Of a DNA stretch of 64,000 nucleotides, positions 13,428-16,904 are shown in pieces. The translations under genes and the position numbers were made by a program. The stretch is taken from the NCBI GenBank assembly GCA_009993605.1, contig JAACTB010000007.1, positions 124,001 through 188,000 on the forward strand, given 5' to 3'. The notes under the pieces were generated by a model. That model ran no database searches, was not told where the DNA came from, and saw only the letters and a program-made list of their open reading frames with translations. The stretch comes from Erythrobacter sp. (GTDB lineage: Bacteria; Pseudomonadota; Alphaproteobacteria; Sphingomonadales; Sphingomonadaceae). Position 1 is the first letter of the stretch. Every line of letters begins with the position of its first letter.

Positions 13428-14798
13428 ATGGCACTGGACATCCTGATCGTCGACGACGAGCGCGATATTCGCGAGCTAGTCTCCGGCGTCCTCAGCGACG
13501 AGGGCTATGACTGCCGCACGGCGGGGGACAGCACCTCCGCGCTGGAGGCGATCGATACCAAGCGGCCAAGCCTCGTCCTGCTCGACGTATGGCTTCACGG
13601 CAGCCCCATGGACGGGCTCGAAGTGCTCGACGCGATCAAGGTGCGCGAGCCGGACCTGCCGGTCATCATCTTCTCGGGCCATGGGAATATCGACACGGCG
13701 GTGTCGGCCGTCAGCCGCGGGGCGATGGATTTCCTCGAAAAGCCTTTCGAGGCCGAACGCCTGCTCCATCTCGTCGAGCGCGCGACCGAAACCGAGCGAT
13801 TGCGGCGCGAGAATACGCGGTTGAAAAGCCATCTGGTCGGCGGCGAGGAGTTCAACGGGAACAGCAACGCGATCACGCAGGTGCGCGCCACGTTGAAGCG
13901 CGTGGCCAATACCGGCAGCCGCGTGCTGATCTACGGGCCGGCGGGGGCTGGCAAGGAAGTCGCGGCGCGGCTGCTGCATTCCTGGAGCCCGCGCGAGAAC
14001 CACGCCTTCGTCATCGTCAATTCCGCGCGGATCACGCCCGAACGGTTCGAGCACGAATTGTTCGGCGAGGAACAGGACGGCAAGCTTGTGCGCCCGGGCC
14101 TCCTCGAACTTGCCGATGGCGGCACGCTCTATCTCGACGAGGTCGCGGACATGCCGCTTTCGACGCAGGCGCGGATTCTGCGCGTCCTGACCGAACAGAG
14201 CTTCGTGAGAGTAGGCGGCTCACGCCAGATCGGCGTGGATGTACGTGTCGTCTCCTCGACCGCCCGCGACCTTCAGAAGGAGATGGAGGAAAAGCGGTTC
14301 CGCGAGGACCTGTTCTACCGTCTCAATGTCGTGCCGGTCACCGTCCCCTCGCTATCCGAGCGGCGCGACGATATCCCCGCGCTGGCGGCGCATTTCTTCG
14401 CGCGTTATGCCGCCGAGCAGGGTCTTCCGCCGCCCACCATCAGCGACGAGGCCATGGCCGCGCTCCAGGCCTATGACTGGCCGGGCAATGTCCGCCAGTT
14501 GCGCAACGTCGTCGAACGCACGGTCATCCTGACCCCGCGCGAGGAGTTCGACACGGTCGAGCCGGGAATGCTCGCGGGCGAGGTTACCGGCGGTAAGCTG
14601 GGCGGGGGAGGGGCGCTCACCGCGATGATGGGCGCACCCTTGCGAGAGGCGCGCGAAAGCTTCGAACGCGAATATCTCTCGGTCCAGATCCGGCGTTTTT
14701 CCGGCAATATCTCGAAAACGGCGACCTTCATCGGGATGGAACGGTCCGCTCTTCATCGCAAACTGAAACTGCTGGGAATGACCGATCGGCGGGATTAA
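13428..14798 (+). CDS. ntrX: NtrX response regulator (AAA+ regulator without GAFTGA loop)
   Basis: The 456-residue protein begins with a receiver domain (IVDDERDIREL, phosphorylation site D53 in LLDVWLHGSPMDGLEVL), followed by an AAA+ domain with Walker A IYGPAGAGKE and Walker B GTLYLDEVADMP, and a Fis-like C-terminal HTH (NISKTATFIGMERSALHRKL). Where NtrC-type activators carry ERGAFTGA, this protein reads FGEEQDGKLVRPG, so the sigma-54 contact loop is missing. That argues it works as a repressor or sigma-70-type regulator, as proposed for other alphaproteobacterial NtrX proteins. It follows ntrY by 6 nt. Confidence 0.95.
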   Translation: MALDILIVDDERDIRELVSGVLSDEGYDCRTAGDSTSALEAIDTKRPSLVLLDVWLHGSPMDGLEVLDAIKVREPDLPVIIFSGHGNIDTAVSAVSRGAMDFLEKPFEAERLLHLVERATETERLRRENTRLKSHLVGGEEFNGNSNAITQVRATLKRVANTGSRVLIYGPAGAGKEVAARLLHSWSPRENHAFVIVNSARITPERFEHELFGEEQDGKLVRPGLLELADGGTLYLDEVADMPLSTQARILRVLTEQSFVRVGGSRQIGVDVRVVSSTARDLQKEMEEKRFREDLFYRLNVVPVTVPSLSERRDDIPALAAHFFARYAAEQGLPPPTISDEAMAALQAYDWPGNVRQLRNVVERTVILTPREEFDTVEPGMLAGEVTGGKLGGGGALTAMMGAPLREARESFEREYLSVQIRRFSGNISKTATFIGMERSALHRKLKLLGMTDRRD

Positions 14799-14952
14799 GC
14801 GGAACGCGATGCCCTTACGACCATTTGCGTAAGGTGGGGCAAAGCCACATCCCAAAGCACGAGTTACCGAATCTGACTGCGTTATCATGCGGCGGAAGGT
14901 TCAGATTGCGTCCCGAGACTGACGGGTCGCCAAGGATACAGGAGGCAGATCA

Positions 14953-15537
14953 ATGTCCGAACGCACTCTCAGCGCCCGTCCGCGCCCTCCCAAACCCGAG
15001 CCGGAAGAGTCCGCTAAGCCCGAAACGAAAGGCAAAGCGGGGAAGGGCGGCACGAAAAACGGGCGACCGCAGAACCTACAGGATGCTTTCCTCAATCTTC
15101 TCCGCCGCGACAAGACGCCGGTGACCATGTTCCTGGTCAAAGGCGTGAAGCTGCAGGGCATCATCACCTGGTTCGACAATTTCTCGATCCTGCTTCGGCG
15201 CGATGGGCAATCGCAACTCGTCTACAAGCACGCGATTTCCACCATCATGCCTGGATCGCCCGTCGATGCCGCGCAATTCGCCAGTCAGGGCTCGGGCGCA
15301 AAGCAGCGGCTGTTGCAGGACGTATTCCTCAGCCGGGTTAGCGAGGCCGAGGTGCAGGTGACGATGTTCCTCGTCAACGGCGTGATGCTCCAGGGCGCGA
15401 TTGCCGCCTACGACCTGTTCTGCATGTTGCTGGAACGCGAAGGCTACGTCCAGCTCGCCTACAAGCACGCCGTTTCCACGATTCAGCCAGCCACCGCGGT
15501 CGATCTGACCGAGGACGATGAGGACGACGACCTCTGA
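14953..15537 (+). CDS. hfq: Hfq RNA chaperone with two tandem Sm domains
   Basis: The 194-residue protein is about twice the usual Hfq size because it holds two Hfq units: residues about 38-100 and 117-180, each ending in the Sm2 signature (YKHAIS at 91-96, YKHAVS at 170-175). Unit 1 keeps the QDAFLN proximal motif and an arginine-rich rim (RRDK, 51-54). Unit 2 keeps QDVFL but has lost the rim arginines (RVSEAE). The N-terminal 35 residues are Pro/Lys-rich and the C-terminus is acidic (EDDEDDDL). Hfq anneals small RNAs to mRNAs; three tandem chains would make a pseudo-hexamer. A strong AGGAGG (14940-14945) precedes the ATG; the 154-nt upstream gap leaves room for a promoter. Confidence 0.96.
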
Positions 15538-15554
15538 GCTTCGATGATGATCTG

Positions 15555-16904
15555 ATGGGCGAGGTGTCGCGCGGCGCGCGCGCGCTGGTTATCGTGCCCG
15601 ATATCCGCGGCCAGTCTCGGGACCTCGATGCAGAGGCGCGATTGGAGGAAGCGAAGGGGTTGGCGCTCGCGATCGGCATCGTCGTCGCAGAGGGGATCGT
15701 GCTGCCCGTACGCGACGTGAAGCCGAACACCCTGTTCGGATCCGGCCAGGTCGAGAATATCGCCACCACCTGCAAGCTGGAAGACATCGAGCTGCTGGTC
15801 GTCGATGGCTCGCTCAGCCCAATCCAGCAGCGCAATCTCGAAGACAAGCTCAAGCGGAAGGTGATCGACCGCACCGGGCTTATTCTCGAAATCTTTGGCG
15901 AGAGAGCGGCCACGGCGGAAGGGCGCTTGCAGGTCGAACTGGCCCATCTCGATTACCAGCAAAGCCGTCTCGTGCGCAGCTGGACCCACTTGGAGCGCCA
16001 GCGCGGCGGCTTCGGCTTCCTCGGCGGGCCGGGCGAGACGCAGATCGAGGCCGACCGGCGCATGATCCGCACGCGCATGGCGCGCTTGCGCAAGGAGCTG
16101 GAGCAGGTCCGCAAGACCCGCACCCTGCACCGCGAGAGGCGAGGGCGGGCTCCCTGGCCGGTGGTGGCGCTGGTGGGGTATACGAACGCCGGAAAATCCA
16201 CACTTTTTAATCGCATGACCGGCGCGCAGGTTATGGCCGAGGACCTGCTGTTCGCGACGCTCGATCCGACCATGCGCGCAGTCGCGCTGCCGGGGGTCGA
16301 GAAAGCGATCCTGTCCGATACGGTGGGCTTCATCTCCGATCTGCCGACCCAATTGGTCGCGGCATTTCGCGCCACATTGGAGGAAGTCACCGCCGCCGAC
16401 GTCATCGTCCATGTGCGCGACATGGCCAACCCCGATGCTGGGGCGCAGAAGCGCGAGGTCCTGGAGATTCTGGCCGATCTCGGCGTAATGGACGAGGACG
16501 GGGTCAGCACGATCCCGATCGTCGAGGCGTGGAACAAGTGGGACGCGCTTTCGGACGAGAGGCGCGCCGAGATTGAACCGCTCGCCATCGAGGACGAGGA
16601 TGTCATGGCGATCTCCGCCATGACGGGCGAAGGCGTCGACGCGCTGACTGAGCGGTTGGGGCGTTTGCTGACGAGCGGGGCGCGGCGCTATGCGATCACG
16701 CTATCAGCTGCGGACGGATCGCGGATCGCCTGGCTACACGCGCATGGCGAGGTGTTCGAAGACAGTCCGGCGGAAACCGACGAGGCTCTTTTGCAGACCG
16801 GGCCATGGCGCACGATCGAAGTGCGCCTAACCGATAAGGAGCTTGGCCGGTTCGAAGCGTTGGATGGGGAAGCGGACGCGGAACCGCTTATTCGTCGCGC
16901 TTGA
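15555..16904 (+). CDS. hflX: Ribosome-associated GTPase HflX
   Basis: The 449-residue GTPase has the N-terminal HflX domain (RGARALVIVPDIRGQ...), a coiled-coil linker (TRMARLRKELEQVRKTR) and a G domain with G1 GYTNAGKSTLFN, G3 DTVGFISDLP and G4 NKWD. HflX splits stalled or stress-arrested 70S ribosomes. It follows hfq by 17 nt, the order found in many Proteobacteria. There is no clear ribosome-binding site before the ATG at 15555, so a non-ATG start slightly upstream, overlapping hfq, cannot be ruled out. Its 3' end overlaps convergent mazG by 17 nt. Confidence 0.95.
   Translation: MGEVSRGARALVIVPDIRGQSRDLDAEARLEEAKGLALAIGIVVAEGIVLPVRDVKPNTLFGSGQVENIATTCKLEDIELLVVDGSLSPIQQRNLEDKLKRKVIDRTGLILEIFGERAATAEGRLQVELAHLDYQQSRLVRSWTHLERQRGGFGFLGGPGETQIEADRRMIRTRMARLRKELEQVRKTRTLHRERRGRAPWPVVALVGYTNAGKSTLFNRMTGAQVMAEDLLFATLDPTMRAVALPGVEKAILSDTVGFISDLPTQLVAAFRATLEEVTAADVIVHVRDMANPDAGAQKREVLEILADLGVMDEDGVSTIPIVEAWNKWDALSDERRAEIEPLAIEDEDVMAISAMTGEGVDALTERLGRLLTSGARRYAITLSAADGSRIAWLHAHGEVFEDSPAETDEALLQTGPWRTIEVRLTDKELGRFEALDGEADAEPLIRRA

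Follow-up and report, generated by a model that had tools for sequence, protein, structure and literature searches.

Hfq is usually regarded as a ring of six equal subunits. Because the six are treated as equal, it is difficult to vary how many rims and how many tails a functional chaperone requires. The hfq gene of the window (the whole 64,000-nucleotide stretch of Erythrobacter sp. DNA that was analysed) encodes two Hfq units on a single chain, and the surfaces of the two units have diverged. The locus raises two questions: what kind of ring does such a chain build, and how are the rim, the tail and the RNA-binding faces shared out between its units?

A two-domain Hfq of known type

The open reading frame at 14953-15537 on the forward strand encodes 194 amino acids plus stop, in one chain with both Hfq domains complete. 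The Pfam Hfq profile (PF17209) matches it in two stretches, at 104.8 and 80 bits (cut-off 27), and the curated NCBI model of tandem Hfq, NF010691/PRK14091, matches it at 296.9 bits (cut-off 270) over profile positions 9-175 of 176. The protein is an Hfq RNA chaperone of the known tandem type PRK14091, of the sphingomonad/erythrobacter group. A sequence-only reading of this DNA had proposed that one gene carries two Hfq units and that both keep the YKHA motif; both statements are confirmed. It had also believed that tandem Hfq was noted in sphingomonads, and rightly so. The available text of Yang et al. 2010 (PMC2877685) describes a Zymomonas Hfq with two Sm-like domains, reports that two such domains are common to six other Sphingomonadales species and poses the question whether three proteins suffice for a ring. 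Thus neither the architecture nor the trimer idea is new. Compared by description, Zymomonas mobilis ZMO0347 resembles the window protein in having two Sm domains per chain, whereas the long N-terminal extension with TLSARP sets the window protein apart; the available text on ZMO0347 describes no rim, distal or tail asymmetry between its units. Text term searches of the accessible parts of PMC9797736, PMC5770649, PMC7546472, PMC10725011 and PMC7471390 returned nothing on two domains. What is new here is a fixed, reciprocal split of rim versus tail between the units; in the open-licence literature we found neither a published precedent for it nor any report of asymmetry between tandem Hfq units. 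Among the 80 best named relatives, out of 577 candidates, Erythrobacteraceae and Novosphingobium predominate, and Erythrobacter sp. HI0063 heads the list with 90% identity.

The gene lies on the forward strand between ntrX (13428-14798, forward; NF051870 NtrX, 729.5 bits, cut-off 600) and hflX (15555-16904, forward; TIGR03156 HflX, 442.8 bits, cut-off 216.75), the latter separated from hfq by 17 bases. By profile matches, a kinase with an NtrY domain is found farther upstream and mazG downstream on the opposite strand. The ribosome-binding site of hfq, AGGAGG, 7 bases 5' of the ATG, is graded good; a scan of 14700-15700 for promoters and terminators of the E. coli consensus type found none. 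In the source genome (2.99 Mb) no Hfq matches beyond these two were found, and a profile search of it found no match to the ProQ family. Given the lack of a ProQ match, the tandem Hfq may be the only classical matchmaker of small RNAs in this genome.

The chain begins with an N-terminal extension (aa 1-39; 14953-15069, forward strand, as are all parts of the gene) of low complexity that is predicted to be disordered, pLDDT being below 50 at aa 1-3, 5-9 and 15-38. It carries TLSARP at aa 5-10, of which T5, L6, R9 and P10 are found in at least 90% of 47 aligned sequences. A TLSAR-like pattern is shared by 27 of the 59 tandem loci and by 66 of the 81 named-set sequences and is absent from all 41 single-domain loci; TLSARP is perhaps a short docking motif. 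Unit 1 (aa 40-104; 15070-15264) is followed by a linker of 14 amino acids (15265-15306) that has no acidic end and occupies the place of the acidic C-terminal tail in a single Hfq. Unit 2 (aa 119-183; 15307-15501) is followed by an acidic C-terminal tail of 11 amino acids (15502-15534), supported by acidic-end counts and net charge in relatives.

Alignment-based prediction of the single chain yielded two good models of five (mean pLDDT 79.2 and 78.4; the others 61, 42 and 41), the better one with a pTM of 0.69; folded without an alignment, the protein reached a mean pLDDT of 44.3, and the alignment-based model was used. The prediction gives each unit one helix (H42-53 and H121-132) followed by five strands, with block-mean pLDDT of 91-96 at aa 41-110 and 88-94 at aa 121-180. 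Solved Hfq structures match unit 1 with Z 10.1 and unit 2 with Z 9.6, and no chain with two Sm domains is present among the best 50 matches of each structure search. Among solved structures, Hfq of Caulobacter crescentus gives the best match, which is to unit 1 (E 5.4e-31). Both units have the fold of Escherichia coli Hfq and most of its face residues; exceptions are Y25 and I30, replaced in both units by F and V.

Opposed changes on rim, tail and distal face

Residues were compared in two sets. The first holds 41 tandem loci of the main clade, 18 from the diverged genus g12 and 41 loci with a single domain, of which one is truncated; the second holds 81 sequences and overlaps the first by at least five loci plus the window. 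Residue numbers are those of Escherichia coli Hfq unless Caulobacter is named.

Escherichia coli Hfq, a single-domain protein, bears R16-R17-R19 on all six of its rims. Aligned to its R16-R17-E18-R19, unit 1 of the window reads RRDK (mean charge of positions 16-19 among relatives +2.63) and unit 2 reads SEAE (-0.39); the corresponding mean of 39 single Hfqs is +2.85. The sequence-only reading had set RRDK against RVSEAE; its RRDK is correct, but the unit-2 counterpart is SEAE, the R of RVSEAE sitting at position 14. It had further held that the rim patch survives in unit 1 only. All 41 main-clade loci have R16, K/R17 and K/R19 in unit 1, whereas unit 2 has R16 in 30, a basic residue at position 17 in 4 (D or E in 24) and one at position 19 in 2 (E, D or G in 34). 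Likewise, unit 2 of the second set keeps R16 in 53 of 81 sequences and has S16 in 16, including the window, which is without the first rim Arg. Counts in relatives thus support that claim only in part: the unit-2 rim is lost at positions 17 and 19 but in just a fraction of loci at 16, so that conservation of unit-2 rim arginines in relatives, which would refute the claim, is seen for R16 and not for the other two.

The tail changes in the opposite direction. According to the available text of PMC6561178, R18, K19 and K21 of Caulobacter crescentus Hfq (PDB 6gwk) form the surface against which the acidic tip packs; the tip touches R18 and K19 directly but not K21. A figure legend of that paper assigns the tip to the adjacent monomer, the tail residue E75 is bonded to R49 and S39 in the neighbouring protomer, and in the crystal the tails pack against neighbouring hexamers too. 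The tail of Escherichia coli Hfq is 38 residues long (same source), and its acidic tip displaces RNA from the rim, as the available part of PMC5606850 reports. We defined the dock as Caulobacter R18, K19, K21, S39 (S or T) and R49, mapped by alignment from this one crystal structure, and an acidic end as at least two acidic residues in the last six. All five dock residues are present in 40 of 40 single Hfqs and in 41 of 41 units 1, whereas unit 2 retains R18, K19, K21, S39 and R49 in 30, 4, 2, 0 and 0 of 41. An acidic end follows 35 of the 40 single domains, none of the 41 units 1, where the linker stands, and 39 of the 41 units 2. Across 81 sequences the mean net charge is -0.06 for the linker (range -2 to 2) and -7.05 for the C-terminal tail (range -16 to -4).

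Thus the parts that meet in Caulobacter, an acidic tip and a basic dock, are present in the tandem protein as the tail of unit 2 and the rim of unit 1, and the two units would adjoin and touch. The Caulobacter protein resembles the window protein in both of these parts and differs in having one domain per chain, so that every rim has a tail of its own. Two counts speak against docking: the E75 position, acidic in 40 of 40 single Hfqs and 5 of 41 linkers after unit 1, is acidic in just 25 of 41 tails after unit 2, and R18 is retained in 30 of 41 units 2. As the main-clade rows all descend from a single ancestor, the reciprocity represents one evolutionary event, not many. The reciprocal split of rim and tail nevertheless fits an alternating ring, for which it is the best, though indirect, evidence that the sequences here offer.

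On the distal face, the exchange of Lys for Met in unit 2 that had been claimed earlier is exact: position 31 is K66 in unit 1 and M145 in unit 2 of the window. M31 is found in unit 2 of 41 of 41 main-clade and 10 of 18 g12 loci, and single Hfqs have K31 in 41 of 41. The change also affects unit 1, which had been missed; there K28 occurs in 41 of 41 main-clade loci and in 59 of 59 with g12 included, single Hfqs having N28 in 41 of 41 and unit 2 keeping N28. Other unit-2 changes had likewise escaped that reading, namely N41L (L41 in 38 of 41 main-clade loci), Q for M63 and, at Caulobacter position 49, a change from R to E; unit 1 of the window has N41 and, at Caulobacter position 49, R. That the units differ on both rim and distal face is upheld, and the difference is fixed across relatives. 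As a separate observation, Q63 (aa 178; 15484-15486) is present in unit 2 of 41 of 41 main-clade loci, single Hfqs having M and unit 1 nearly always M; lying in the last strand, it may mark a contact between the units.

Both units keep Q8, F25, Q33, F42, Q52, Y55, K56, H57 and T61 in 41 of 41 loci. Among these are Q8, F42, K56 and H57 of the proximal face and F25, Q33, Q52 and T61, which read bases on the distal face. With these retained in both units, either face should still be able to bind RNA all around the ring. In the available text, the phosphate is contacted by the backbone amide at position 31 in Pseudomonas Hfq (PMC6422490), and N28 makes a water-mediated contact at the second A site (PMC10628458). 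Given these contacts and the intact specificity residues, K31M and N28K should tune the charge around the distal sites. Unit 1 has two lysines at positions 28 and 31 and unit 2 has none, so a three-chain ring would still hold six such lysines, as does a single-domain hexamer. The distal change thus looks more like redistribution than loss of lysine, and through it RNA binding may itself be redistributed.

Possible assembly of the ring

How might these chains assemble? Three chains forming a pseudo-hexamer would be the most economical reading. They would close into a ring of six Sm domains with the units alternating 1-2-1-2-1-2, in which RNA binding would stay possible on both faces all around, and annealing at the rim would fall chiefly to the three units 1. 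Each unit 2 would place its acidic tail beside a unit 1, on whose rim the tail would dock, much as the Caulobacter tip does on a neighbour protomer; since an alternating ring puts unit 1 on both sides of unit 2, the surviving tail would meet the surviving dock. Duplication would then have retained one tail per working rim, three and three instead of six and six, the other three positions giving up both tail and docking site. We consider it reasonably likely that this is what the protein is: a tandem Hfq with opposed units, building a three-chain alternating ring whose unit-2 tails dock on unit-1 rims. On a broader reading, that of a built-in heteromer in which fusion alternates the subunits, with the rim in one, the autoinhibitory tail in the other and two alternating kinds of distal A-R-N site (unit 1 combining K28 and K31, unit 2 N28 and M31), our judgement is evenly balanced. 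If true, a ring that naturally has three of each would make the question of rim and tail number directly testable. It would also show how a homomeric Sm ring can start dividing labour, and would parallel in bacteria the step by which homomeric Sm/Lsm rings became heteromeric.

The same residues have to be weighed under other arrangements. Six chains might instead form one hexamer of units 1 and another of units 2, tied by their linkers into a stacked dodecamer in which one ring anneals. Each unit folds completely and like-to-like contacts are ancestral; moreover, unit 2 has M31, L41 and, at Caulobacter position 49, E in all 81 sequences of the second set, as expected if a whole ring bore one new surface. 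Yet stacking would leave the unit-2 tail beside the dock-poor unit 2 and the unit-1 dock with no adjoining tail, and a linker of 14-18 residues would have to bridge two rings at all six positions, which makes this arrangement improbable in our judgement. Unit 2 could also be mostly structural filler that completes the ring while its surfaces, freed from RNA duties, drift. It is indeed the more diverged unit: compared with 10 single-domain loci from the family it averages 59% identity and unit 1 77%, identity within the unit is 75% against 84%, and position 13 is relaxed. pN is higher in unit 2 in 2234 of 3240 pairs (means 0.098 and 0.083), these pairs, like those for dN/dS, not being independent. 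However, median dN/dS is 0.102 in unit 2 and 0.094 in unit 1 (1514 pairs with dS below 1.5), the changed positions M31, Q63 and L41 are themselves fixed, at the counts given above, and Q8, F42, K56, H57, Q33, Q52 and T61 are kept throughout. Both units are under purifying selection and unit 2 is not decaying; we regard the filler explanation as unlikely, if somewhat less so than stacked rings.

Free single units could in addition mix if the chain were cut or unit 2 separately started. The linker, predicted at low confidence (block-mean pLDDT 62), is probably flexible, and inspection by eye finds an in-frame TTG at the beginning of unit 2. Two findings speak against this possibility. The same inspection of 75 bases around the unit-2 start finds neither ATG nor GTG in frame and nothing resembling AGGAGG, and a single frame holds both domains in 59 of 59 tandem loci fetched from the window's family, a shared arrangement that also argues that two domains in one frame are not a matter of chance. 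We give this possibility hardly any credence and return to the alternating three-chain ring as the preferred reading.

Diverged members and origin of the tandem form

The reciprocal pattern is not universal: loci of the genus g12 have basic unit-2 positions and acidic linkers, and 10 of the 18 are tailless. In the eight tailed g12 loci the unit-1 dock is present in 8 of 8 at every position; in their unit 2 the K19 position is basic in 7 and the K21 position in 4, R18 and R49 are kept in none, and the E75 position is acidic in 5 of 8 linkers. The other ten (L051-L056 and L058-L061) encode a tandem Hfq that is strongly diverged and lacks a C-terminal tail; its linker has 7-10 residues, and its unit-2 helix is shortened and aligns poorly. 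Their unit-1 dock is eroded, with R18 in 10, K19 in 9, a basic residue at K21 in 3, S39 in 6 and R49 in 6 of the ten. On the one hand, the alternating model expects such erosion upon loss of the tail; on the other hand, the overall divergence of these loci may explain it.

In an order-level sample of 396 genomes, 313 belong to the window's family and 83, as read off the listing, to other families. Two Hfq matches are found in 300 of the 313 and one in 13 (likewise read off the listing); the single frame was checked in the 59 fetched tandem loci, the rest of the 300 being known by match number alone. The 83 genomes of other families have one match in 76, none in 6 and two on separate contigs in one; this last genome (G001) was rejected as a carrier of tandem Hfq because its two matches lie on different contigs. 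In a sample of the phylum (299 genomes), the tandem cut-off is passed by 12, all from the window's family, that is, by 12 of 13 sampled family members, among which it is the usual form, and by none of the other 286. Among 337 genomes of the class, the tandem form is present in all five from the window's family. Taking as criterion a match over both units with no internal stop, we found no independent tandem Hfq outside the family among the matches listed for these 337 and 299 genomes.

A tree of the neighbouring genes (HflX and NtrX fragments; 56 rows, from 56 of 100 distinct loci; quick search, with no bootstrap) has one change between the single and tandem states and a tandem clade with SH-aLRT 99, some deep forks being weak or open. 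The family's single-domain members form a basal grade on this tree, which favours an ancestral single domain, and domain loss in these genera was rejected on that account. The simplest history is that a single-domain ancestor gave rise to the tandem form one time, by one duplication that has been kept since.
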